From positions 1-64,000 of the IMG/VR virus record IMGVR_UViG_3300036985_003381: a stretch of DNA of 64,000 nt; one strand, 5' to 3'. Of this stretch, positions 12,417 to 31,700 are shown piece after piece. Both the position numbers and the translations under genes were made by a program. The notes beneath the pieces were generated by a model. That model searched no databases. It saw only the letters and a program-made list of their open reading frames with translations, and was not told where the DNA came from. This stretch comes from a virus. The first letter of the stretch is position 1. Every line of letters starts with the position of its first letter.

Positions 12417-14805
12417 TACAATATTTAAAACAATAAGGGATATAGATGCTCCATTCCATAGGGATGTGATGGTTATATTAGAGAGAATCAAAAACGGAAC
12501 ATCAAAAGAAATAATTAAGAAAATACGATTAGAAAAAAATAAAAATGAAAGAAATGAAATAAAAAAACAGTTGGTTGCTATTTGTTTTAGCGGAAAATTT
12601 AATAAGAGGGCTGACAGTTCTATTATATCGCATTCCGGTTTAATATGTTTAGATTTTGATGGATATGTAAAGCAAAAGGATTTGCTAGTAGACAAAGAAA
12701 TTCTATCTAAAAACAAGTTTGTATTTAGTGTATTTATTTCTCCGTCAGGTAATGGGTTAAAGGTGTTAGTAAAAATACCACCAATAACAGATAACCATGT
12801 AAATTATTTTAATTCATTAGAGAAATATTTTGATTCTCCATATTTTGATAAGACGAGCAAAAATATAAGCAGAGTTTGTTATGAGTCTTATGATCCATTA
12901 ATTTATATAAACAGTGATTCAGAGGTGTGGGAAAAGATTGAAGAGTATAATCATGTTGAGATTAATAAATTTAAAGATAAGCCAACAATCCCAATTAGTG
13001 ACGAGAATAAGATTGTAGATATACTTATTAGTTGGTGGACTAAGAAGTATCCAATGGTTGAAGGCTCAAGAAACCAAAATGCATACATCTTGGCTATGGC
13101 ACTAAATGACTTTGGAATTAATAAGAGTTTGGCAATGTTTGTACTAACCCAGTATGCGACAGATACATTTAATGAATTTGAGGTTAAGACAGTAATTGAC
13201 TCAGCATACAAGAACACGCAAAATTTTGGCACCAAGTATTACGAGGATGAGCAGAGGATTAACTCTATTAAAGAGAAACTGAAGAGAGGTGTGCCAAAAA
13301 AGGATATCCGCATCCAACTGCAAGATTCCAATTTGGATAGCGATGTAATAGAGGCAGTTTTAAATAGGGTTGATGAAGAAAACCAAAAACTAACCTTTTG
13401 GAATAAGAATGAGAAGGGTGCCGTATCAATGGTACACATCCAATTCAAATCATTTTTAGAGTACAATGGATTCTATAAGTACTGCCCTGAAGGTAGTAAG
13501 AGTTATGTATTTGTAAGAGTTACTAATAATTTGATTGACCATACAAGCGAAAAAGAGATAAAGGACTTCGTTTTAAGCTACCTAATCGAGTTAGATGACG
13601 TTAAGGTATATAATTACTTCGCTGACCAAACAAGGTTCTTTAAAGAGGAGTTTATGTCGTTAATTTCTACAGTAGATATTTACTTCATGGAGGACACTCA
13701 ACATACAGCTTACTTGTACTATAGAAATTGTGCAGTAAAGATTACCAAGGATAGTATTGTTACCATAGATTATATTAACCTTGGAGGATTTGTCTGGAAA
13801 GACCACATAATAGATAGGATATTTAATATATGTGCTGTTACAGGTCGTTGTGACTATAAAACATTCATTGCTAATATTTGCTACAAGGATGAGGATAGGA
13901 TTAAGACAATGGAGAGTACAATTGGGTATTTGCTACATGCACATAAGAACCTATCGTTTTGTCCTGCGGTTATACTAAATGATGAGATTATTAGCGATAA
14001 TCCTAATGGTGGGACAGGTAAGGGGTTATTTATGAATGCACTAAGTAAAATGAAGAAACTTGTTGTTATTGATGGGAAGTCGTTCCTATTCGAAAGGTCG
14101 TTTGCATACCAACTAGTTTCAGCAGATACACAAATTCTATGTTTTGATGATGTTAAAAAATACTTTGATTTTGAAAGACTATTTAGTATTGTAACCGAAG
14201 GTCTTACATTAGAAAAAAAGAATAAGGATGCTATCAAGATACCATTTAGCAAGTCACCTAAGATTGCTATAACTACAAACTATGCTATCAAAGGGTCAGG
14301 TAATTCATTCGCACGAAGGAAATGGGAACTTGAACTACACCAGCATTATAATGAGAACTATAGCCCTCTCGATGAATTTAAGAAACTAATGTTTAGCGAT
14401 TGGTCAGATATTGATTGGTGCGAATTTGATAACTATATGATTCAGTGCTTAACCGGATATTTAAATACAGGTCTTGTTAAGTCTAAATTTGTTAACTTAA
14501 ATATCAGACAATTATCAGCTGAAACTTGCCATGAGTTTATTGAATGGTGCGGATTACTAGATAATCAAGAGCAAAATCAAATGCTAGAGGTAGAGACAAG
14601 GTTATATAAAAATGATCTATATGCTGCTTTTATTGAAGAATATCCAGACTATGGTCCAAAGTCAAAAATGACCATAAGTAGAACTAGGTTTTATAAGTGG
14701 TTAATATCTTACTCAATGTATAAAGAAAATACAATGCCTGAAGAAGGGAGAGACTTAACAGGTCGTTGGATGATTATTAGAAGAAAAAAGGATGCAGTTG
14801 ATTGA
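12403..14805 (+). CDS. Primase-helicase with VirE-N/BT4734-like N-terminus
   Basis: Replicative primase-helicase fusion of 800 residues. The N-terminus (about 1-150) resembles the VirE-N/BT4734 domain common in Bacteroidota mobile elements, with LICLDFDGY near residue 80 and FISPSGNGLKVLVKI near 110 as in archaeo-eukaryotic-type primases. A PriCT-like helical segment follows (GSRNQNAYILAMALNDF, about 222). The C-terminal part has a superfamily-3 helicase core: GGTGKGLF (Walker A, about 536), ILCFDDVKKYF (Walker B, about 580) and IAITTNYAIKG. The ATG lies in the iteron array. It overlaps the next gene by 14 bp. Confidence 0.85.
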   Translation: MTYDITIFKTIRDIDAPFHRDVMVILERIKNGTSKEIIKKIRLEKNKNERNEIKKQLVAICFSGKFNKRADSSIISHSGLICLDFDGYVKQKDLLVDKEILSKNKFVFSVFISPSGNGLKVLVKIPPITDNHVNYFNSLEKYFDSPYFDKTSKNISRVCYESYDPLIYINSDSEVWEKIEEYNHVEINKFKDKPTIPISDENKIVDILISWWTKKYPMVEGSRNQNAYILAMALNDFGINKSLAMFVLTQYATDTFNEFEVKTVIDSAYKNTQNFGTKYYEDEQRINSIKEKLKRGVPKKDIRIQLQDSNLDSDVIEAVLNRVDEENQKLTFWNKNEKGAVSMVHIQFKSFLEYNGFYKYCPEGSKSYVFVRVTNNLIDHTSEKEIKDFVLSYLIELDDVKVYNYFADQTRFFKEEFMSLISTVDIYFMEDTQHTAYLYYRNCAVKITKDSIVTIDYINLGGFVWKDHIIDRIFNICAVTGRCDYKTFIANICYKDEDRIKTMESTIGYLLHAHKNLSFCPAVILNDEIISDNPNGGTGKGLFMNALSKMKKLVVIDGKSFLFERSFAYQLVSADTQILCFDDVKKYFDFERLFSIVTEGLTLEKKNKDAIKIPFSKSPKIAITTNYAIKGSGNSFARRKWELELHQHYNENYSPLDEFKKLMFSDWSDIDWCEFDNYMIQCLTGYLNTGLVKSKFVNLNIRQLSAETCHEFIEWCGLLDNQEQNQMLEVETRLYKNDLYAAFIEEYPDYGPKSKMTISRTRFYKWLISYSMYKENTMPEEGRDLTGRWMIIRRKKDAVD

Positions 14806-16237
14806 AAGAGATTACGGACATAATAACCAAATGATGTATGAGTCTTGTCTTAGGTTGCAGAGAGTTATTAATATTAGCACAACTGAGACAAAACGTGGTA
14901 AGATAGAAATAAAATTAAAACATAAGACAGACATCGAAACAGTAAATAAAATTAATATGAGTTGTGAGCATTATAGATTACTGTCGGAGCGTGACCTGAA
15001 AAGACATTCTGAGTTAATTCTTAGAGACTATCAAATTGATATAACTAATAAGGCAATTGATATAATTAATAGGCATGGATTTGTTTACTTAGCTATGGAA
15101 GTTAGGACAGGAAAAACTTTTACTTCACTATCTATAGCAGAGGATTTAATGGTTAAAAATGTATTGTTTATTACTAAGAAGAAAGCGATATCAGGTATTA
15201 AAAAAGATATAAATCATTTTTTACCAATCTATAACATAGAGGTAATAAATTATGAGAGTTTGCATACTGTTGAAAACAATCATATATGGGATTTAGTAAT
15301 ATGCGATGAAGCTCACAGTATGGGAGCATTTCCTAAGCCAAGTATAAGAGCGGTTTCTGTAAAAAATATTTTAAAAAAAACAGGATGCAAGACAATATTC
15401 CTTTCAGGAACGCCAACTCCAGAATCATACTCACAGATATATCATCAAGTATATGGTGTTGCATTAAATCCATTTAGAGGATTTTCTAATTTCTATAAAT
15501 TTGCAAATGAATATGTCAATGTAGTACAAAGAAATATTGCTGGAAATAAAGTAAATGACTATTCAAATGCATTGAAATCCATAATTGATGTAATGAATCC
15601 ATATACTATTAGTTATACTCAAAAAGAAGCAGGATTTTTAAGTGAAATAAAAGAAGAGATATTGTATATAAAACTAAAAGAGTCTACCTATAATATAATA
15701 AATAAATTAAAAAAAGATTTAGTTGTTAAAGGGAAAGATGAAGTCATACTAGCAGATACATCCGTAAAACTTATGACTAAAATACACCAACTATGCTCAG
15801 GAACAGTAAAGTTTGAGAGCGGCAATTCAATAGTACTAGATACAAGTAAGGCAGAGTTTATTAAAAATAATTTTTTGGGATGTAAGATTGGAATATTTTA
15901 TAAGTTTAAGGAAGAACTAAACGCATTAGAAGAAATATTCGGTGATGAACTTACTACCGATCTTGAAGAGTTTGATAATACAAATAAGAACATAGCCCTA
16001 CAGATTGTATCCGGGAGAGAAGGTATATCACTAAAGAATGCTGACTATTTGGTTTACTATAACATCGATTTTAGTGCTACAAGTTATTGGCAATCTAAGG
16101 ATAGAATGACTACCAAGGAAAGACCTGCTAACCAAGTCTATTGGATATTTTCTATTGGTGGTATTGAAAAAGATATTTACAAGCAAGTATTAAATAAAAA
16201 AGATTATACATTAAACCATTTCAAAGAATCATTATGA
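14792..16237 (+). CDS. SF2 (SNF2/DEAD-like) helicase
   Basis: A 481-residue superfamily-2 ATPase: LRDYQIDITNKA (Q-motif-like, 78-89), RTGKT (Walker A, 105-109), CDEAHS (Walker B, 171-176), LSGTPTPE (motif III, 204-211), and in the second RecA domain VSGREGISLKNADYLVYYN and SYWQSKDRM (motifs V and VI). This compact SNF2-like type is common in phages next to primase genes. Translation is probably coupled with the primase-helicase through a 14-bp overlap. Confidence 0.88.
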   Translation: MQLIERDYGHNNQMMYESCLRLQRVINISTTETKRGKIEIKLKHKTDIETVNKINMSCEHYRLLSERDLKRHSELILRDYQIDITNKAIDIINRHGFVYLAMEVRTGKTFTSLSIAEDLMVKNVLFITKKKAISGIKKDINHFLPIYNIEVINYESLHTVENNHIWDLVICDEAHSMGAFPKPSIRAVSVKNILKKTGCKTIFLSGTPTPESYSQIYHQVYGVALNPFRGFSNFYKFANEYVNVVQRNIAGNKVNDYSNALKSIIDVMNPYTISYTQKEAGFLSEIKEEILYIKLKESTYNIINKLKKDLVVKGKDEVILADTSVKLMTKIHQLCSGTVKFESGNSIVLDTSKAEFIKNNFLGCKIGIFYKFKEELNALEEIFGDELTTDLEEFDNTNKNIALQIVSGREGISLKNADYLVYYNIDFSATSYWQSKDRMTTKERPANQVYWIFSIGGIEKDIYKQVLNKKDYTLNHFKESL

Positions 16238-16886: not shown

Positions 16887-16934
16887 GTAGGGGCAAAATA
16901 CTATTTTAAAATGTAACGTAGTATTTGCCCTAAC
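16887..16934. repeat. Gene-less cassette-like unit with inverted ends
   Basis: GTAGGGGCAAAATACTA (16887-16903) pairs with TAGTATTTGCCCTAAC (16919-16934), with one bulged A and a weak GTTA end on the left. The unit is only about 50 bp and has no gene between its arms. Its right end (CCCTAAC) is the R''-like box of the next hairpin. It may be a degenerate unit or a former terminator at which the array was inserted; no T-run follows. Confidence 0.5.
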
Positions 16935-17059
16935 GTATGGTGCTATAAGAAATAGCGGATTTTGAAAACGAAAATTTGAATTATGCAGATAAGTTTATTT
17001 GAAAACGAAATGTTGAATATAGCACAGAACCCGCTATTTCTTATAGCACATGTTAGCGG
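16928..17059. repeat. attC-like hairpin before the methyltransferase-like cassette
   Basis: CCCTAAC (16928-16934) is followed by GTGCTATAAGAAATAGCGG (16940-16958). A perfect inverted copy lies at 17031-17049, then GTTAGCGG (17052-17059). The order (YYYAAC box, long arm, loop, arm, GTTRRR box) is the architecture of integron attC sites, including a short unpaired spacer. The loop holds two copies of TTTGAAAACGAAA (16961-16973 and 16998-17010) and the ATG of the next frame. Confidence 0.6.
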
Positions 17060-17684
17060 TTGTTCTTTTCCAAAGATTATCCTTCACTTATGTGCTGATT
17101 TAGGTAGCGATAGTTTGTTTTATCAATTATCTGATGAATACGAAGTAATAATGATAGGCGAAGAAATAGGCGTTGAAAATTACAATCCACCGCCTAATGT
17201 TTGGGGAATAATTGCAAACCCTGTATGCACCGAATTTTCAACAGCAAACGGATTTCATAAAGAAAATGATTTAGAAAAAGGAATGTTTTTAGTAAACCAC
17301 TGTTTGAGAATTATTGAAGCTGCAAAGCCTAAATGGTGGGTAATTGAAAACCCTGCAAATGGTAGATTAAAAGAGTTTTTAGGCAAACCAAAACTTGTTT
17401 ATCAACCTTGGGAATATGGAAGCCCTTGGACTAAAAAAACAGGATTGTGGGGTGAATTTAAGATACCTACAAAGAAATATACTGATTGGAATAAAGTGCC
17501 TAAAAACGATAAACTTTATATAAGACCAGGACGCCCAAAACCTGCACTTGCATTTTTACATAAATCAGCAGTTGATTTAATACCCGAAATGCAATGGGCA
17601 AAAGATAAAATAAAATGTGATGCTGATATTCGTTCAATGTGTTCTGCTGGATTTGCAGAGGCGTTCTTTCAGAATAACCGCTAA
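16983..17684 (+). CDS. Atypical cytosine methyltransferase-like protein
   Basis: Class-I SAM-enzyme-like protein (233 aa from the ATG). The family core begins near residue 30: HLCADLGSDS (SAM loop), IIGVENY-like segment, WGIIANPVCTEFSTA (in place of GPPCQ) and WWVIENPANGRL (motif VI-like ENP), then PWEYGSPWTKKTGLWG. It has no large target-recognition domain, unlike the gene at 8386. The family normally starts just before HLCADLG, but there is no ATG or GTG there. The visible ATG lies in the attC-like loop, so the first 20-28 residues are translated from the recombination-site-like DNA. The TAA stop sits in the CCGCTAAC box. Confidence 0.7.
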   Translation: MQISLFENEMLNIAQNPLFLIAHVSGCSFPKIILHLCADLGSDSLFYQLSDEYEVIMIGEEIGVENYNPPPNVWGIIANPVCTEFSTANGFHKENDLEKGMFLVNHCLRIIEAAKPKWWVIENPANGRLKEFLGKPKLVYQPWEYGSPWTKKTGLWGEFKIPTKKYTDWNKVPKNDKLYIRPGRPKPALAFLHKSAVDLIPEMQWAKDKIKCDADIRSMCSAGFAEAFFQNNR

Positions 17685-17775
17685 CGGTTGGGTGTATGAG
17701 AAGGTTTGCTTAGACGAACTTTCAAATTAACACTACTGTTAATAGCAAACTTTCTTATACACCTTGTTATGTGTA
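17671..17775. repeat. attC-like hairpin between the two cassette-like genes
   Basis: CCGCTAAC ends at 17685. GGTGTATGAGAAGGTTTGCT (17691-17710) pairs with AGCAAACTTTCTTATACACC (17744-17763); the only two differences give G-U pairs. GTTATGTG (17766-17773) follows after TT. The outer boxes are not complementary to each other, but each matches the opposite end of its own unit, as expected at a junction between two different cassettes. Confidence 0.65.
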
Positions 17776-17840
17776 GTAATTTTGTGGGTAGGAGTTGGAT
17801 TAAAATACAATTTTAAATATTTATATATAAAAATAAAACC

Positions 17841-18086
17841 ATGAGTAAAGAAATGAGAGAACAAATAAATAAAGTAAAGAACTTCGAACAGTTCTTGAAT
17901 GAAAATATTGAACAAAATAAATGTGTTTGTATAAAAAACATTAAATTTAAAAATGGTATGAATTATTTTAAAGACTTTACTTATACTTGTGAAATGAATA
18001 TAGATAAAGTGTCTGTTGCTTATGAAGATGGTAGATTTACAACAATGGGTAATGATGTTTTTGATATTCATTTTCAAGTAATCTAA
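17841..18086 (+). CDS. Orphan cassette-borne protein (81 aa)
   Basis: Only gene of the second unit, which runs from GTTATGTG (17766) to CACATAAC (18112-18119). It follows a 55-bp AT-rich leader. The product is a charged helix (SKEMREQINKVKNFEQFLNE) followed by beta segments with two cysteines (CVCIKNIKFKNG). Unrecognised, as are many cassette genes. Its A/T-rich codon use is like its neighbours. Confidence 0.6.
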   Translation: MSKEMREQINKVKNFEQFLNENIEQNKCVCIKNIKFKNGMNYFKDFTYTCEMNIDKVSVAYEDGRFTTMGNDVFDIHFQVI

Positions 18087-18101
18087 TTGTGGGTTGATAA
18101 A

Positions 18102-18157
18102 AAAATTATTACACATAACTAATCGGTGAGTATTAAATAACTAAATACTAATTATGC
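18102..18157. repeat. Right end of the second unit and a degenerate attC-like site
   Basis: AAAATTATTACACATAAC (18102-18119) is the inverted partner of GTTATGTGTAGTAATTTT (17766-17783), 17 of 18 pairs. It is followed by GAGTATT (18128-18134), AATACT (18144-18149) and TTATGC (18152-18157), a shorter, partly decayed version of the arms and right box. The last bases include the ATG of the next phage gene. Confidence 0.5.
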
Positions 18158-18862: not shown

Positions 18863-19099
18863 ATGATACAACCAACAAAACAAGAACTAAAAACAAAGAT
18901 TATCGAACTAAATGAACTACTTCGTAGAGAGATTAAAAACATTATATATCACCAAGAGTTGACTGAGAATATGAGGGATAAGATGATTAGGGGAGACAAG
19001 TTAAACCAAATCCTTATGATAAAAATTAGTTCTTTAGAATATGCAATTAAAGAATGTAATAAATCCTGGTGGAAGAAAATGTTTTCTAAATTATTCTAA
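18863..19099 (+). CDS. Hypothetical helical protein (78 aa)
   Basis: The ATG at 18863 is chosen over an upstream TTG frame extension. The product is an almost continuous charged helix ending in SWWKKMFSKLF, an amphipathic tail that could contact membrane or partner protein. Its last base overlaps the next ATG. Unrecognised. Confidence 0.55.
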   Translation: MIQPTKQELKTKIIELNELLRREIKNIIYHQELTENMRDKMIRGDKLNQILMIKISSLEYAIKECNKSWWKKMFSKLF

Positions 19100-19338
19100 T
19101 GACTGAGCAGCAAATACAATCTAAGCATATAAAGAAATTAGAGGCTGAAGGATACTATGTTATAAAGCTTATTAAAACAAATAAGAATGGTATACCTGAT
19201 TTAATCGCAATACCAAGGAATGCTGATGTCTTATTTGTGGAGGTAAAAACGCCAACAGGAGTGCTTTCTAAGTTGCAGGAGTATAGATTAGAGGAACTTA
19301 AATTGCATGGTCTTAAAACAGACGTTTATAGGGGATGA
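19099..19338 (+). CDS. VRR-NUC domain nuclease
   Basis: Stand-alone VRR-NUC endonuclease of the phage type (79 aa). The motif string GIPDLIAIP (Asp34), FVEVKTPTG (Glu48, Lys50) and SKLQEYRL (Gln60) matches the PD-(D/E)XK active site. Such proteins cleave branched or flap DNA during replication and recombination. It follows the charged helical gene by a one-base overlap and overlaps the next by 4 bp. Confidence 0.9.
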   Translation: MTEQQIQSKHIKKLEAEGYYVIKLIKTNKNGIPDLIAIPRNADVLFVEVKTPTGVLSKLQEYRLEELKLHGLKTDVYRG

Positions 19339-19724
19339 TACAATTTGAATCTAAAGAAAATATAGCAAGGAAAAATAAGTCAATGGATGTATTCATTAAT
19401 ACATTCGGTGGAATTTATAAGAAATCTGAATCCTTAGAATATAAAATACTGAATATAAATGGGGACCTAATTGCTTATTCAGAAGTAATTATATCCCCAA
19501 ATGTTATAAGATACGCTTATCCATTATCAATTACCATTACCAGGTTTAACAAGTTGATATCTAAGCGGCTTAATCCGGTACTCATTTGGTCGTGTGACGA
19601 TGGTATTATATACGCTAAAGCTATGAACCTAATTGGTACAATAAAATATGATAAACTTTTATCTGACTTTGTAATATACTTTGACAAACAAAAGGAGTTC
19701 AAATATATTAGGTATATAAATTAA
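19335..19724 (+). CDS. Hypothetical protein next to VRR-NUC (129 aa)
   Basis: Last plus-strand gene of this block. Contains a beta pattern with LIWSCDDGIIYAKAMNLIG near residue 82 that resembles a small nuclease-like or DNA-metabolism fold, but no complete motif is visible. Its stop codon overlaps, tail to tail, the stop of the giant minus-strand gene (shared 19722-19723). Confidence 0.55.
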   Translation: MIQFESKENIARKNKSMDVFINTFGGIYKKSESLEYKILNINGDLIAYSEVIISPNVIRYAYPLSITITRFNKLISKRLNPVLIWSCDDGIIYAKAMNLIGTIKYDKLLSDFVIYFDKQKEFKYIRYIN

Positions 19725-22700
19725 AAATTTTCATTAATTGCATCATCTATTTCTTTATCAATATTTTCAATTTCTTTATAAATTTCTTTATCAATATCTT
19801 CAATGCTACTGCTTTTAGAAGATGTCTTTTTCGTTAATTGTTTTTCTGTTTTCCCTTGTTTTTTGATAATTGCAAGTTCTCTTTTGGATATAGTTTTAAC
19901 ATCCGTTGGGACTAATTTTAGCATTGAAACAGAATTTAACAATAAAAGTAATGGCAATTTATTTACATCTTCATCTGATAATGTTTTAGTATTACCATAA
20001 TCATCTACAAATTGTTTAGTATAAATCATTTTAGACAATTTATATAATCCCATAGCATCTTCTGCTGCTATACCCAATATCCCTGCTTGTTTAACAAAGT
20101 CTTTTGGCTTTGCTTCAAACAACAATAATCTTTCTTTTTCTGGCTTGTCCATTTGCAACATATTTGCAATATAATTTATTCCAAATGTTACAGCAGGGTC
20201 TGTTAAAGGAACAGGAGAAAGCATATCGGCTGCAAGATTTGTAATTTGCCCTTTATAAATATTATTTAATCTTTTTTGTTTTTCTTCTTCATCGTCATCT
20301 CCACCCCATATTGAATTAGTGATTGAATCTAGTAATGCAGTTGTACCTATCGACACCAATCTAAATGCAGCAGCTTCTACTGCAAATCCTGCTAATGACT
20401 TTGCTGCTATTGCCTTGTCTTGTTTAGATGAAGTAAAACTTGTAAGTGTAGTTACATCATTTATCAATCGTATAGACTGATTTATTCTGAAATTAGCAAA
20501 AGCAAATATTGTTTTTACTACAATCGTTCTGTATGCATCATTTTTAGTAAATAGCATTCCTCCCAAGTCCGGATCGGATATGTTCTGTTGTCTGTTAACC
20601 ATTCTTGTAGCATAATTTTTAGCATCCTCGTTATATACATTAAAATCAAATTTTATTTTATTTTTACTCAAATAATCTTTGTAGTATGTAAACCACGATG
20701 CCCTAGCAATAAATACATCAGGTTTTTCAAGCAACCATTTAAGTTGAAATTCTCCCAATTTTTTTATATATTCTAATTGCTTTATTCCAGATGAATTATT
20801 TATTAAATCTTCTAACTTATTTGATTTAGTTATTTGAGCCTCAGATGCCATTGACCTATTTGCAACTGTTGTACCTGAATTATCAATAAAATCTCTAATT
20901 TGTTTATTCCAAATATTTCTAATGTCTAACCCATTTGCATTAATTATTGTATTAAATGCCAATGGCACTACTTGTTTAACAGGTTGAGATAAACTTGTAA
21001 GTGCGGATGCAACTCCTATAGATGTAATACTATTTAATTTATTTATTGCTCTTGATAACTGTTCATTATTTATATTATTTTTATTTCTTGTAAGTTTCAC
21101 ATAATGATTTACTCTTGATTTTAATAAATTTCTATCATTTTTATTTGGTATAATATTAGACATATTTTCCATAAAAGCTTGAAGTTGTCTTATAGGACCA
21201 GCCGTTTTTATATCTATCAATGCATCATACATTGAATTTACATTATTTGTATCAAACGATAAATTTATATATGAACCTTTTGGTAGAGGTTTATGTTGTG
21301 CTTTTTTAAGTGACCCTGACTCCTCTTTATATAATGTCCCAGGTCTAAAATTATTTGTATTAAATACTGACTGAGTTTGTTCGATATCTAATTCTTTTTT
21401 TAATTCTGTATTTAGATATCTCGCAGGGGTATAATTAGATTCTCTCTCTAATATTTCATTGTAAATACTCTTAGAAACATCGTTCATTTCATCAAACTTG
21501 CTGTCCCATTTGTTTACCCAAAAAAGTACAGCCTCCCCATTTATTGAACTAACTTTACCTTCAATATCTTCAATGCTTTCGGCATCTTTAAGTATCTTAT
21601 TATATACCTTTTTATATAGCTCCCCTAATCTGTTTTCTTCTTCTGAACTTTTATCATTTGTAAGATATTCTATAGAGTCTATTATATCGTTTTTGCTTCT
21701 TATAAAATCATCTTCCATTTGCTCATTTGTGCCAATAATTGTTCTTAGCATATGTGCATACATACCACGTTCTACAATATTTTCTTCATCAAAAAAATCT
21801 TTCCCATTTGGTTTTGTGTCTCCAAACTCTTTAGTATACTCTACAGCAAACTTTTTTACTTCACTTGTCGCTTCAGCCTTCCCATTTACAACGCTTGAAA
21901 TACCGCTCTTATCTTCAAAAATACCCCCCCTTATAACCCCTTTAAACATTTTCTCTATTAAAGATGGTAGAGAGGAAAGTTGTTCATATGCCGCCCCTCC
22001 TATAACCCCGGAGAAATATAATTTAATTTTACTAGATATTAATTTGTTTTTTTCAAGTTCCAACGAATTTTTCAATCCTGTATATTCATAAAAAACAGAC
22101 CCTATTTTTGCAATAGACTTATTCTGTATAAAGTTCTGCAATGCATCCACCGCATCAATAACTGTCTTTAAATCCAATAAAGACAAATCCATACTCATAA
22201 ATTTCTTTATAGTTTGCTCTTCAGAAGCTGTCAGTTCAAATATATCACCACTAATAGGTTCTGTTCCAGTACTAATTATCTTATTTATTATTGCTGAAAA
22301 AGAATCAAATCTACCTTTAGCCTTTTTTCTAAATAAGCCTTCATCTTCTTTCTTTATAATTAATTTATCTTCTTTAATTAATTTGATTATTTGATTATAT
22401 GTCATACCAGAAGTATCATCAATTCCAAATAATTCTTCTAATTGTTCTGATGCTCTATTAAATAATATTCTATCCTGAATTTTTTTTACTGTTTCAATAT
22501 ATTTTAAAGTAGGTACAATATCTATAATATCAACAAAATTATCTGATGATTTTGTTCCGGTTATAGACTCTTTTAGTTGCGTTGCGATACTATTATACCT
22601 GTCTATATCCTCTACTAACGATGTGTCTAGTTCTAAGAACTTTTTTGCTAATGCCCTTAAATCAGCATTTTTAGATTTATTAGCAGCTAGTTTTGCTATT

Positions 22701-25700
22701 TGTTTTTTTATTTTATTGGCAGCAATTAGTTTATTTTGATAGTCTACATCTTTAAAAACATTAGACATATAGTCTAAAAACGTATTTATAGAGTCATCAT
22801 TAAACATATTTATTTTACTAAATTTATTTAAAATGGCTGTTAACTGAGATGTACTTATTTTCCCGTTTATCTTTAATGCTCTGACTGACTTTATAACCTC
22901 AGCGGATATCTTTAACCAAGCTGCCTTGGTATCCCTTGATGATTTTGCCATGTCTCTTATTCTTTGCTTTAGAAGTTGAGTGTCTGTCATCGTAATATTT
23001 TTGATATCCTTGATAGTATCAAATAATTTACCTGGAGATGGGGCAGACTTTTCTCTAACACCTAATTTCTTATTCAGCATCCTTACCAATGCCTCACGCT
23101 GTACATCTGTGGCATTCTCGTACACCAAGGAACTCTGTAAGTATGCTAAAGCAGATGTGTATACCCTTTTCTTAGTAGAGTCAATCTTATTGGATGTTTC
23201 GTCAATAATTTTATCTAATTTCTTTATCATTGCATCGTACCCGGGCAGATTACTCTCGGATAGATCACCCTTCTGAGACTTGGATACAGGTTGGTTTAGA
23301 CCTTTGAATAATGGTATTCCGCTTTCAACTGACTCTTTTAGTTCGGGTGTTATGTCTATGGAGTTTTGAGTGGTTGTTATATTATTGCTTTTTGATTTTA
23401 ATTTTAATTTTTTAAATTCTTTATATAAATCAGAGTTTTCATTTATTTCTAATTTAACTGCGTCTACATTATAAATACCTTCTCCAGCATTTTCAAGGAA
23501 GTCTTGAAAAAATCTTATTTCTTGTTGATTCCCATCATATATTTTCTTTATAATTTCAGTTGTCTTCGGCTCTTGCTTAAATAAACTCTTAGCTACATTA
23601 CCTACTATGCCTAAACTTCCTTCTTTTGGTGAACCATAAAAACCTTTCATCCCTTTGCCACCAATTTTTAAGTAGTCCCCTTTTAACACTTTATGCTCCC
23701 TTGGTTGCCCACTATAATAATCATTCCCAATTACAGAATGATATTCTTCACTTACATTACCTTCATTATTAATAATTTTATTAGAAATTTCTTTACCTAA
23801 TACTCCTTCAAGTTGTGATTCAGAATAAACACCACTTGAAATAGATTGATTATTCTTATCAGCACTAATAATATATTTACCATTATCTAATTTACTATAT
23901 AAAATTTCATCAACCTGCTTGCTCAGATCATACCTGTCATTCTGTTGTTCCCCAGTAGTCCAAGCAATCTTATCAGCACCTTGTTTTACTGCTTCTTTAA
24001 GAGCTACTTTTAAACCTAATTTTGCCCAAGCGTTTGTGTCCATTACGAAAGGAGCTTGAGGGGTTGATGCGTTAGCGTTGTCTATACTACGTTCAGCAAT
24101 ATTAATTTTTTCATTTTCTATTTCAATCCCATTAAAAGCTGATAATATTTCTTTTCTTATTGTTATTTTTTCCGTTTCGTATTTCTCAATTTCTTTATTT
24201 GCAGCATCCCAATCTCTGTTATTTCTTACGGTATCTTTATATTTTTCTAATCTAGCAATCGCTTTATTTATTTCAGATGTTCTTTCTGTTTTGCCTTGTT
24301 TAAATTCTGCAATTTCGGATGTAGATGAATTTGGTAGTAAACCTAATTTTTTAAGCGATTTATTGTATTCAGATATTTTTTCTTTTGATTTATTAATAAT
24401 ACTTTCTTGCTCCGAAGTATCTTTAAACCCTTCCTTCTTACCTTTCTGTCCCCAATCGCTTTGTACTTCTTCTAAGAATAAAACCTTGTTGCCTTCTACA
24501 TCTGTTCGGGTATTCATTCTTAAATGAACAAGAATGTTTGGTTCGTCAAAGTGGGATGATTGGAATGATGTTTGGGCTTTTCTGTTTGCTGCTATTCTTT
24601 CTTTCTCTGACCTATTAAATTCTTCGTAAACCTTATTAAATTCTTTGTCCGTTAGGTCTGCAAACTTTGGTGCTTTTATTCCTTCTTGCCCTCTGTATTT
24701 ACTCATATTGCCCTCATACCAATCTCTTAATAAGAGCGGTTTTTCTTTACTCGGCAATGTAACCAATATCTCTTTGTAGTTTTCTTTTTGTCCTTCTAAT
24801 TGGTATTGAGAGAATTTAGTTCTACTATTTTCTACATAGTCATTTCTAAGATACTCAATAGCATCATCTCTTGACATATCTTCACCTACTTCATCATTCA
24901 TTAAGGTATCTATATCATCTTCGGTTGGTTCTTCTTTCACAACCTCAACTATTTCAATACGATTGGTTTTAAAGTAATCAAGTAAATCGTTTTTATAAAT
25001 TACTTTATCCGAATTTTCAGTTAAATAATCGGCAACACCAGTCCATTTAAGCTCATCTCCCTCTGTTTCTCCTATTAATCGTTTTAACCATTCTTTCCCT
25101 GTGGCTTTATCAAGTTTAGACTTGTTTATTCCCCTTTCAAGTGGACTATAAAACCCATTAATTAATTCGGCAGTAGGTTTAGAATTATCTACTTCAACTT
25201 CTACTTCTTTTCCGTTGAGTGTAACTTTGTATTTGTCGTTTAGGTGTTTGGCAAATAATCCTTTATTCCATTTGGCATTATTTATTTTGCTATCTATCCA
25301 CTGAATTGCTTTATTAATAGCATTACCAAGTTTAGACCCTTTTTCTACTTCTCTTGCCGCTATTTCTAATGCACCGTTATAAATAGTTTTACTTATACCG
25401 AAATCTACATGTACGCCTAATCCGCTAAGTTTCTTAGACCTTATTTTTGAGGCTAAGTCTTTTATATCCTGTCCCTTCTGAGACTTGGATACGGGTTGGG
25501 GTGTTGCTTGAGAGTTTTTTTCTTTAATATCAAGAGCTTGTTCATTTAATGTAGGGCTATCGCTATAAAACTGACCCCCAATAGATTGTAAATTACCTAG
25601 TGATTCTATTTTAGAACGTCCAAAATCAGCATTACCCCCAATAGACTGTAAATTACCTAGTGATTCTACTTTAGAACCCTCAAAATAAGCATTACCCCCA

Positions 25701-28700
25701 ATAGACTGTAAATTACCTAAGTCTTTTACTATAGAGTCATTAAACTCAGCATAACCGCCAATAGATTGTAAATTACCTAGTGATTCTACTTTAGAACCCT
25801 CAAAATAAGCATTACCCCCAATAGACTGTAAATTACCTAGTGATTCTACTTTAGAACCCTCAAAAGTAGCATAACCCCCAATAGACTGTAAATTACCTAA
25901 GTCTTTTACTATAGAGTCATTAAACTCAGCATAACCGCCAATAGATTGTAAATTACCTAGTGATTCTACTTTAGAACCCTCAAAATTAGCATAACCCCCA
26001 ATAGACTGTAAATTACCTAAGTCTTTTACTATAGAACCATTAAAAGTAGCATAACCCCCAATAGACTGTAAATTACCTAAGTCTTTTACTATAGAATTAG
26101 TAAAATTAGCAGTACCCCCAATAGATTGTAAATTACCTAGTGATTCTATTTTAGAACGTCCAAAATCAGCAGTACCCCCAATAGATTGTAAATTACCTAG
26201 TGATTCTACTTTAGAACGTTCAAAATCAGCATTACCACTAATATATTTTAAATTTTTTGGGAATACAACTGAACTACTATCATAATAATCATTAATCAAT
26301 ATTTCAGTATTTGATTCAATACCACTACTATATAATGCAATTTTTCCTCTTAAATCCTCAGCAACATCACCATACCTTACTTTTACTTTAATATTTTCAG
26401 TTAATTTGCTTACTAACCCATTTTCACCATAATCAACAGAATATTTTTTAGCATCTTTTATTATATCAAAATATTCTAATATGTCATCCATAGACATATC
26501 CTTATCTTCAATGTTCTTAGTAAAGTCTTTTACTTTATTATTATAAGCAATAGAATCTAACCACTTCTTACCACTATCGTTTGGTATACTTTCTTTTAAG
26601 AACTTATCTGCGACAGGTAGCATATCGGGTTCTAAATCTTGCTTAGAAGAAGCATTCCCTCTTACCTCACCAACCTTATCACCATCCATCCTTACAGCAA
26701 TCCTAGGAACGTATTCTCCCTTTTCATCATCTGTAACATAAACATAAAAATCACCTCCCTTTAATTGGTTTAGTGCATTTGTTTTTGTACACCAATAAGT
26801 ATTTTGTACTAACTGAGATAATTTATTTGCTGTATTACTTAAATCTTGTGCATTATTTCCACCATCAAACTTCAACCATTTGCCTTCTTTAGTAGATACC
26901 ATAGAATTAGCACCAACAATATTATTTACATTATTTGCTTGTACTTCTACATAATCTTTTAATAGTGCCTTGCTCTCGCTATCATAGATAGATGCAAGTG
27001 TCCCTGCATCAAATGGTGTAAAGTTTCTAATTGTTTTATTACTTCGCTTGGTATATGATCCTGTCTTAAAATCATAGTTATGAGTAAGAACAGCATCTAA
27101 TATTATATATTTAAACGCATCACTGTAATCAGATTGGTTTAGATAGTCCTTCCATTGACTTAATGTTTCTGATTGCGCTCTTGCATACTCTTTAATATAA
27201 TTAGCTCTCATAGGAGAGTTTTCATCAAGAGCAGACCTGGCACTTTCTATCCTACTTAAAGATGCACCTTCGTCTTCTAATGTGGTAATCTCAGCTTTTA
27301 TGGCTTGTGTAATTGCAGGGCTATCTTCATTAATTATATATTTATTAATATCTTTTATAAGTTTATTAAACTCTTCAGATATTTTTTTACCTACCTCTTC
27401 CTTGGTGAACTTTACTCCAGATAAACCAATTTGATTCATTGCCTGAGCAGTTCTCTTATCTTGTATACCAACCCTATTATATTTAAGAACATCGTTTTCA
27501 GTAAGATTTATTAATCCTTTCTGAGACTTGGATTTTATAGTTGACCTTTTAACCCTTGAACCATATTTATTTACAATATAATGAGACCCTCCGGTACCAT
27601 ATATATTTGGTAAAGTTTTAATTGCCTTATATCCTAATCCTAGTTTATTTAATTCTTGTGTTATTCTTGGACCTTCAATAATTTTATCTATATATCCATT
27701 CTTATCCATTTTAAACCTGTCAGCAAATGCATCAAAGTCTTTCTGAGACTTAGAAATAGGGAATTCCTTATTCATCTTATCAACCTCAGATTGTACCTTA
27801 TCAGATACTACAGGAACACGCTCAAAGAAGTTATTCTCAGCTGCTCTATTTTTACTTAAAGTATCTTTACTAATTTTTGTGAATCCGTTTTTCTTGTAGA
27901 ATTCATTTAATTGCTTTTGATTTAATCCTTTCTTAGTACCTGCACGTCTTTCTGATTGAGCTAATGGCTCTCCAATAAGAGTTATATTGTTCTTATCTGC
28001 AAAATTAGTTAGTGTCTTTAAAGACTCACTTCCCCTTCCTTGACCTAACTTGTCGGGATTTACTTGGAAGTCATCGATAGTCACATAACCATCATTACTT
28101 TCTGATAACCAAAATGTAGCTCCGTCGAACATCATCGCTACATCAGAGCGACTATCTCCACGCATCTGTGCAACACTCGATAGGTCAGTAAAGAACAGTC
28201 TATTTTTGTTGGCATCTAATCCACCAAAGAATGTGTCTTTTATCTCTTCATATTTACCTTCTGTAGAGACCTGTGATTTAGATACCACAGGATTTCTCTC
28301 CATCATATTATTTTTAGTGCTCTTCTCGAAACCGAATTTTGAGTAAAACTCTTTCAACTTCTGAGGAGTCTCAAATCCCTTGGCTTTAATTTCACCAATA
28401 AGATTTGGAGTGAGTATCATTTTTACGTTATTCTCATCAGCAACCTTAGTAACGATGTTCATTATTTTTGAACCATTACTGGTACGCTCACCTTTGTTTT
28501 TACTTACAATCTCATCAATCTTAACAGTGTTGTCATCAATCTGAGTCATCTTGATTCTTCCGAGAAGATTTCCATTTTCGTCTGTAGCTGCATACCCTCC
28601 ACCTAAGTGGTCATTTGGGAATACCACATCCATCTTATCAAAGAAATTATCAGATTTTGTTGCTAATTGTGACTTGGATACAGCATTTGTAACTTCAAAA

Positions 28701-31700
28701 ACTGCTACTTTTGGTATTGCTCCTGCACTTGATGCTACATTTTTCTGTTCAAATTTTGGCTCTTGTGCTTTCCTTGAAGTCTCTGATCCTGACTTATTAT
28801 ATTTTATATAAGATTCAGTTACATTACTTGATTTATAAAAATCAGTAGGTTGATATATACCATTTATTTTAGCCAAAAGAGACCACCCAAAAGATGGATG
28901 ATGGTCTACAGCATCAGGTTTAGTTTCAACAATTTTAAATGTATTTGGGTCAAATTTAATTACATTAATTATTTCACCTCCTTCAACACCCTTGTTAAGT
29001 GGGTCCATTATTCTATTAAAAAACTCTTCTTTATTTTTTACTCCTATTGCTTTTTGAAAAATCTTATTTGCAGCGATTGCATTGTTTAATGCTTTCCTTA
29101 AATCAGGAGAATAATTATTTTTAATATCTAATAGTTCTACAATCTTTTTAGGATTACTTTTAAATGAACTAAAATTTTTAATATTCTTGCCATACTTATC
29201 TTTAAATGCTTTAAATGCTGCTTTATTTTCAGAATTAGATTCAATAGTTTTATTAAATGTATCTATCAATTCTGATTCACTCATTATCCCTTTATCTGTA
29301 ATTAAGTTAATAAGTTCTGCAAATGTATGTTGTTGGAATTGCCAAGAATTAGATAATGTTCCTGAATGCGGAGCAAATAAAGATGCCTTTCCCTCTTTTG
29401 CATTTCTTATAAATGATTCTGCTTGAGCTTGTGAATTAAATGCCGCCAAATTAGACACGTCTCCAAGTTTTTTATTTTTTAAAGACATCATATATGGGAC
29501 ATAATTTTTCCCACCAAGCATATTTATTTTAAATCCATTCCCTAAATCTGTTTCACCTACGGTTGTATAATCATACATATTTGTTACAAAAGGCATTCCG
29601 TTAAATTCCTTTATATCAATATCTTCAACTAGGTTTTTAATAAATGATCTGCTGTCATCTGAAACACTAGGAGCTTTCTTTGTATCCTTACTACTTTTAG
29701 ACCCAAAGTTAAATATTCCTATTTCACCACCACTATTAAGTTCTTTTAAATAATCACCATTAATCTCCTCACCTTGTCTTATTGATTTAGATACCGTATT
29801 TAAAAAATCTATTAGCTCTTTAGTGTTTTTTGTATCTTCAAATACAGTTATTTTACCACCTGTTATTTTAGATACGGTTTGATTAATTACAGCAGCAATT
29901 TTTTGAAGTATTGTCGGTGATATATTAACATATTCTTGCTCTAATATAGCAGCCAATTCAACAATATATTCCTCATATTTAACATCTCCTTTATAATTAT
30001 TTGCAAAATCTACTAAATATTTATTTGCAGTGCTATTTAGTATTGGTTGCATTTTATCTACAAATGTTTTAAATATTTGCTCGTTTTCACCAAACACTTT
30101 TAACATTATACCATGAGCAACCTCATGTGCTACCGTAAGTTTATTTGCTTTATTTAAATTTATATCTATACTACCAGAAAAAGACCCATCACTTTGTTTA
30201 GTATAACTAAAATTTCCTGCTGACCCCTTTTCTCCGTTTACTTTTTCAACTGCTGTATTATAGCTTTCTTCGGTATCATGTATAACTATATCAAAATTAG
30301 GTAGAACTGATTTTAATGTTTTTATAGCCTTTTGAGCTTTATTAATTATACTAGAATGTAACTCAGAACCCTTTGCCTTTAAAGCATTTATTTTTTCTGC
30401 ATTTGTTATTGATATACCACTATCTACTGGTGTTTGTGGTTGTCGATACATTGAGTCTTTAGTAGAAAAATCTTTATTCTTTCCCTTATTTTCTACAAAT
30501 CCAAACTTCTTATAAAATTCTTTTAATCTATTTACAGAAGTACCACCAAAATCAATTGATGGTGTTAATACTATTCTTCTACCAATACTATCTGCATATT
30601 TTATAATAGCCTCCATTGCCTTAGAACCAACACCTGTGCTTCTTTCATCTTTTGGTACCTCTATCCTTGACAATGTTAAATCACCTTTGTCAGAATTACC
30701 CGTCAAGTCAACAATAACCCCATATTCATTTTCAATTTGTTTTGAAAATTCTATTGGTTCTAGTACTTGGGCTTCATCGGTTTTGGTTTGGTTTTTGGTT
30801 TTGCTTTCATCTGTTGTTTCGTTTAATGGTTTAACTTGTTGTGTGGTTTGAGCCAACGCATCTAATTCTTTTTGAGCCTCCGCTATTGGCACTGCTATAT
30901 CTCCTATAGTTACAGTGCCTGTAGTGGTGTCTGGTGACTGAAGTGCTTCCTCAAGGATTACTTTCCTTTTTTGCTCTTCATCAGTAAGGACTTTTTTGGT
31001 CCCTGTGGTAGTTTCTTGAAGTTGGGTGTCTCCTTCTCCCATGCCTTGCAATCCCATTTCGGGCTGTTCATTGCGTAACATGCTTTCACTTGTTGTTTGT
31101 TCTTGAATGGCATTTTTTGTTATATTAGTAAGTTTTTCATCTATTGCATCAATTTGATCTTTATATGGCTTAACTAAACTTGGGTCTTTATCTTTTATTT
31201 TTTCAGTTAATTCTTGTTTTTGTTTTAATAAATCTAGAGATTCTTTAGTTTGATCCAAAGATAACCCCGGGGGTATTTGATTAAATAATTGTTCTGCCTT
31301 TTGGTAGTTTACCAATTCCTGTTTAGCCTCATCAAGACTTAGTTCACCTAAGTTTACTTTTAATTTCAAGTCTGCAACATATGCTTTTTGTATTTTTTCA
31401 TTGTTTGCAGTAAGACCAAATACTTTAAGCGTATTATCGCTCAAGTCTTTGAATGCACCTGCCTTATACGCACTACCAACTGTACTTACACCTGTTATTA
31501 CAAATCCTCCTAACCCCTCTAAAAAACCTGCCTTGCCCACTTGGCTCATATACTCACCTATGGTTTCTGGCGTAGTAAATAATTGCTTGTCTTGCATATC
31601 ATTATATACTTGCTTTATGGTTATATCCGCAATTTCTTGAGCTACACCAGTTTCAGCCTCAGCCAAGAATCCTCCTACCAGCTTTAATGCTCCTTTTTGT

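Follow-up and report, generated by a model that had tools for sequence, protein, structure and literature searches.

We find that the window, a stretch of 64,000 nucleotides taken from a 64,324-base IMG/VR virus record (IMGVR_UViG_3300036985_003381) with virion structural genes, very probably contains an array of two cassettes that belong to an integron-like system found in phages of Bacteroidota. The evidence, all of it read from sequences, consists of the structure and covariation of the sites, gain and loss of genes bounded by boxes, polar docking, linkage to a recombinase, and an inverted orientation of the phage genes. It is also likely that the system represents a separate integron lineage, widespread in the chromosomes of Flavobacteriaceae and in their phages, whose recombinase does not have the IntI domain; in the phages the genes would be inverted, with the hairpin providing start codon and leader, and virulent phages would draw on a common pool of anti-restriction genes by means of recombinases acting in trans.

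The array of the window

Two full cassette-like units, which the original prediction had delimited, lie at 17052-17685 and 17766-18119 and, each together with the hairpin before it, make up units A and B; apart from the gene-less unit, the features given here are on the + strand unless stated otherwise. The start box of unit A is GTTAGCGGTTGTTCT (17052-17066), whose position 11 is the G of a G.T wobble, and its end box is AGAATAACCGCTAAC (17671-17685), the two arms pairing at 14 of 15 positions; the putative crossover, TAAC^G, falls at 17685/17686. In unit B, GTTATGTGTAGTAATTTT (17766-17783) pairs with AAAATTATTACACATAAC (18102-18119) at 17 of 18 positions. The window has two instances of a box-matched cassette directly after a hairpin, whereas 100 dinucleotide shuffles have none. 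The two long joining hairpins proposed earlier fold stably as DNA (z = -5.2 and -6.1, with none of 200 shuffles as good). Hairpin 1 (16935-17051), of a 117-nt class, opens unit A and scores 46 bits with our covariance model R1; hairpin 2 (17686-17765), of an 80-nt class, opens unit B and scores 83 bits (E 1e-12).

Unit A carries a DNA methyltransferase-like gene of 233 aa (16983-17684, phrog_757). Its ATG (16983) falls within the hairpin 1 loop, which makes a single unit of hairpin and gene, and its stop codon (17682-17684) lies within the end box, as had been noticed from the sequence. The gene of unit B (17841-18086) encodes 81 aa, with an N-terminus, MSKEMREQINKVKNFEQFLNEN, common to otherwise different cassette proteins. 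The third, gene-less unit that had been proposed (16887-16934) survives in part: it has an inverted repeat (z = -2.6) and the expected CCCTAAC end, in the left box GCCCTAAC (16927-16934), but starts with GTAGGGGC, not GTTA, and is at best a decayed remnant. At the other end of the array, without a hairpin, is a tentative docking (attI-like) sequence (18120-18153), recognized from sequence and unlike the conserved docking sequences of other phages.

The array is flanked on the left by a conserved helicase gene (14792-16237) and on the right by a VRR-NUC-like gene (19099-19338), named from a reading of its sequence and kept in nearly all relatives; the spot between the two is hypervariable in the relatives of the window phage. 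A 66-aa gene past the array proved unrelated to the gene that LMO phages have in this position and was rejected as its counterpart. Adjoining the spot is an ORF of 4,577 aa (19721-33454, - strand) with repeated segments, possibly encoding a giant virion-associated polyprotein.

The absence of an integrase, pointed out in the original prediction, holds for the whole record, in which no tyrosine recombinase (PF00589) was detected. The recombinase must therefore act in trans or have been lost; we infer that the window array was built in trans. With two R1 matches and no integrase in its record, the window fits the description of a CALIN, i.e., at least two attC sites without an integrase.

Structure of the sites

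In 156 distinct cassettes the two ends pair over 15 bp except at position 11, where 81% have G.T and 2% a Watson-Crick pair; the detector favours the first box positions, and neither positions 13-15 nor the wobble. It demands GTTA/TAAC, and box positions 5-8 vary, often breaking RRRY, as opposed to the strict GTTRRRY/RYYYAAC. Among 31 distinct 80-nt hairpins, 12 of the 21 pairs predicted are supported by compensatory changes. One inner pair occurs in 30 of the sequences and is G.T in every one of them. The outer and inner boxes thus appear both to read outward from the crossover, with the G.T at a similar distance. Of 160 reconstituted sites, 154 fold more stably from the G.T strand than from the complementary one, the mean difference being 3.9 kcal/mol. 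The wobble would mark the recombining strand, by analogy with the extrahelical bases of attC. As in attC, one strand carries the R and L boxes with a mispaired marker, a fixed G.T replacing the extrahelical bases. Hairpin lengths cluster near 40, 80, and 117 nt, and no Rfam family matches the hairpins.

The hairpins, which the earlier reader had proposed to seek near unrelated genes, occur in many phages. Pattern scans located the two window types on 16 further IMG/VR contigs, beside different genes, and over 71 bp the hairpin 1 loop shares 93% identity with DNA of cultivated Flavobacterium phages; these carry a leader like that of the window, joined to a methyltransferase of another family (PF01555). 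A detector requiring a hairpin with a matched cassette found runs of at least four consecutive cassettes in several contigs and one cassette in reversed-sequence controls.

The recombinase and the docking site

Five of 18 records tested encode a tyrosine recombinase, in each case at most about 6 kb from cassettes, some of the contigs being 170-362 kb long. Relatives of this recombinase were found at 80 viral loci, 46 of which have cassettes upstream on the same strand. Counted around the recombinase, 150 cassettes are upstream on the same strand vs. two downstream and two on the other strand, and the reversed-sequence control yields one; the cassettes are tandem, and 154 of 161 share one orientation. 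IMG/VR records are predicted viruses; terminase genes are present in eight of 22 virus records tested (seven above the cut-off), large ones among them, so at least those are phages. In the LMO phages, Polaribacter phage P12002L, and the relatives of the window with arrays, no tyrosine recombinase was found, and there it would act in trans.

The recombinase has about 267 aa and resembles both XerA and IntI, its nearest sequence family being NF040815. The IntI model TIGR02249 matches it in two pieces with 150-158 bits against a cut-off of 265. About 48 residues of IntI4, corresponding to the IntI additional domain, are absent, and the AlphaFold model (pLDDT 84, pTM 0.60) has a 17-residue loop at that place; the additional domain around patch III that integrons have is thus missing. 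The solved structures nearest to the model are XerA and IntI4. The earlier fallback suggestion of a different hairpin-recognizing system was partly right, in that the recombinase of related phages does not have the IntI-specific domain. In a tree with 75 chromosomal recombinases, those of phages group in a single separate clade (SH-aLRT 100), which also takes in three MAG contigs.

In the LMO phages, five different last cassettes abut an identical TACAATATTACATG at the array end. Similarly, the arrays of three window relatives end at TAAC|TGYCGTATTGTNGCAG after three different last cassettes. Variable last cassettes at a fixed array-end sequence point to polar insertion at a docking site. At about 45 loci the last TAAC is followed, without a hairpin, by TATnATATA-like DNA and then by the recombinase start, mostly 36-58 bp from the junction. 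The docking sequence is thus attI-like, located beside the recombinase, and would receive the newest cassette. A search with a short exact docking pattern returned known relatives only.

Chromosomal arrays and gene orientation

A restriction of the system to phages was considered and rejected once R1, and then a second model, R2, revealed chromosomal arrays. R1 showed site arrays next to chromosomal relatives of the recombinase, and R2 was built from these. Over 148 Flavobacteriales genomes R1 gave few matches because it models the 80-nt class of phages; one exact phage hairpin was absent from 84,980 GTDB genomes. R2 matches 105 of 120 Flavobacteriaceae genomes vs. one of 60 Pseudomonadota. 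Recombinase and sites co-occur (81/105 vs. 3/15, p = 2.7e-5, an approximate value as the genomes are related), and in 15 genomes among the matches listed the sites are found past the 3' end of the recombinase gene, on the strand opposite to it. The Flavobacteriaceae arrays thus appear linked to a sister of the phage recombinase and are apparently overlooked chromosomal integrons. In the IntegronFinder 2.0 survey, Bacteroidetes proper had only In0 elements and one complete integron, in Salinibacter (PMC9024848).

Large attC-like arrays are present on chromosomes at loci L159, L158, L147, L154, and L164, at G191:C5:409514-445300, and on G209:C1. The contig ends less than 300 bp past the recombinase stop codon at 25 of 80 bacterial loci (L112-L191) vs. 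one of 80 viral loci; cassette arrays seem to break short-read assemblies. The single Pseudomonadota match is a Methylophaga MAG, one contig of which (L113, PAJP01000008) bears both sites and a phage-type recombinase, possibly a misbinned phage or a host jump.

The longest ORF is on the site strand in 154 of 161 phage cassettes vs. two of 20 bacterial ones. The chromosomal sites have the same G.T polarity as the phage sites in 18 of 20 cases, and 18 of 20 chromosomal ORFs are on the strand opposite the site, the classical arrangement. It follows that, with respect to the site, the genes of phage cassettes are inverted. In the Flavobacteriaceae chromosomes the site is 3' of the cassette gene, as attC is, whereas in phages both breakpoints and orientation place the hairpin at the 5' side. 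Of 101 hairpins of the 117-nt class, 61 contain in their loop an ATG whose frame stays open for 40 codons or more into the cassette (reverse control, one); in the 80-nt class none of 69 does.

These data bear on the reading that competes best with ours, in which the arrays are conventional CALINs whose cassettes owe their mobility to an IntI that has the additional domain and comes from a host or plasmid, while the array-adjacent recombinases do something else. Phage CALINs, including that of P12002L, and the activity of IntI1 on phage attC have been published (Qi et al. 2023, PMC9892861). The P12002L sites match R1, and since IntI1 recombined one P12002L attC (PMC9892861), a dedicated enzyme is not strictly required. 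We nevertheless regard this reading as rather unlikely: it leaves unexplained recombinases without the IntI domain beside a conserved docking junction and the inversion of cassette genes relative to the site, and none of nine bacterial genomes holding recombinase relatives has a TIGR02249 match above the cut-off.

Gain and loss of cassettes in related phages

Natural events were sought among near-identical Baltic Sea Flavobacterium phages isolated on strains LMO6 and LMO9. Whole units differ between mumin6-1 and 6-3, sniff9-1 and 9-2, snork9-1 and 6-2, filifjonk and mumin, tooticki and mumin, and hemulen and snork. Simple indels have TAAC, TAACG, or TAACGTT at both ends, so the unit gained or lost comprises the hairpin followed by GTTA, the gene, and TAAC. 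The integron-cassette reading of the original prediction is borne out: where one phage has a gene that another does not, the boundary is exactly at a box. Its expectation of boundaries at GTT needs refinement, since exchange takes place at the TAAC side of the hairpin rather than at the GTT side, which means that the hairpin moves with the downstream gene. Movement with the upstream gene, the classical integron way, was considered and, for fresh events, is ruled out by the breakpoints.

Exchange is not always at TAAC: the inner GTTA box is the junction at which the methyltransferase leader of the window and of mumin meets different genes, and one cassette pair has its break at GTTA. In the window (16983-17051), in L002 (3022-3096), and in L013, leader hairpins have been joined in frame (V-S) to different methyltransferases, precisely at GTT AGC; exchange thus has a further mode, located at the inner box.

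It is most improbable that such events arose by ordinary homologous recombination at repeated hairpins or by mosaicism among phages, the hairpins being terminators. Some hairpin types do recur almost identically, which provides homology, but simple fresh indels share just 6-12 bp, centred on TAAC, between different hairpins. Moreover, insertion is polar at the docking site, the stems diverge yet covary and keep the G.T, and boxes match per cassette, not globally. Another single-strand-DNA element, IS200/IS605-like or a repeat-borne transposon with hairpins that are only attC-like, is hardly credible: folded single-strand sites do serve other elements also, but the recurrent neighbour here is an Xer/IntI-like tyrosine recombinase, and two inverted boxes with a docking site are arranged as in integrons.

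Proposed mechanism and comparison with known systems

In the integron-like mechanism that we favour, one strand of each site would fold into a two-box hairpin. Its outer box would be formed by the cassette's own two ends, 15 bp with a G.T at position 11, and its inner box, bearing the same wobble, would lie in the stem. An Xer/IntI-like tyrosine recombinase that lacks the additional domain of IntI would attach to this folded strand and carry out the exchange at TAAC^G; we infer that it is the array-linked recombinase that acts on these sites, and the intermediate would be a circle with single-strand folding. The circular unit, hairpin plus gene, would enter the array at its docking end or leave it by excision, the enzyme being supplied by other, often large, phages that carry its gene beside the docking site. 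Since the phage genes, unlike those of host arrays, lie on the folded strand, the hairpin would come at the 5' side of the gene, where it is able to carry a start codon and leader.

Xer recombinases resolve chromosome dimers at dif. The archaeal XerA and Xer proteins (PDB 5hxy, 4a8e) are nearest to the phage enzyme by NF040815 and by fold, whereas here the gene is linked to cassette arrays. Like the integrons described by Ghaly et al. 2022 (PMC9668308), the system has single-gene cassettes with end boxes matching per cassette, folded two-box sites, docking beside a tyrosine recombinase with polar insertion, and a crossover equivalent to G^TT on the other strand. It differs from them in the missing IntI-specific domain and in phage genes on the folded strand, with the site before the gene and able to hold the start codon. 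It therefore appears to work like an integron, yet falls outside the published IntI definition. The Bacteroidetes integrons of IntegronFinder 2.0 (PMC9024848) belong to the same phylum; unlike them, the Flavobacteriaceae arrays have a recombinase without the IntI domain. The CALIN of P12002L (PMC9892861) likewise comprises methyltransferase-bearing cassettes in a virulent Bacteroidota phage; in its text we found no dedicated recombinase, gene inversion relative to attC, docking sites, leader hairpins, or natural gain and loss. Our search of the open-access literature brought up no earlier account of a dedicated phage recombinase that lacks the IntI domain, or of inverted cassettes, hairpin start codons, docking, or natural gain and loss.

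The IntI additional domain has been treated as defining and as necessary for integron recombination. A large integron-like system without it would alter how integrons are defined and account for the small number that surveys report from Bacteroidota. To phages it would offer a specialized means of exchanging anti-restriction genes. Direct tests are feasible, as pairs of phage and host are in cultivation.

Cargo of the cassettes

Among 22 scanned cassette proteins there are five methyltransferases of four families, along with an exonuclease, an RNA ligase, YopX, DUF4326, and HAD proteins; the LMO arrays contain several methyltransferases. With a cargo so rich in DNA methyltransferases, the likely benefit would be the exchange of anti-restriction and other host-interaction genes among phages. 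LMO9 phages that plate poorly on LMO6 are reported to lack a specific methyltransferase (Nilsson et al. 2020, PMC7077304), and as methyltransferases are cassette cargo, host range may be shuffled by cassettes. In P12002L, a Mom-family DNA modification gene adjoins cassette sites (L205, 37305-39245).

An N-terminal stretch, MSKEMRxxIDKVKNFxQFxNEN or MKDLKKFIxTTIxEYLNEQ, is seen in the window (17841-18086) and at L018, L017, L038, L090, L056, L016, and L095. A loose form of the motif is present in 19 of 150 cassette proteins vs. 30 of 1345 other ORFs. The stretch resembles capsid-targeting leaders of T4-like phages, and by analogy cassette products might be packaged in virions.
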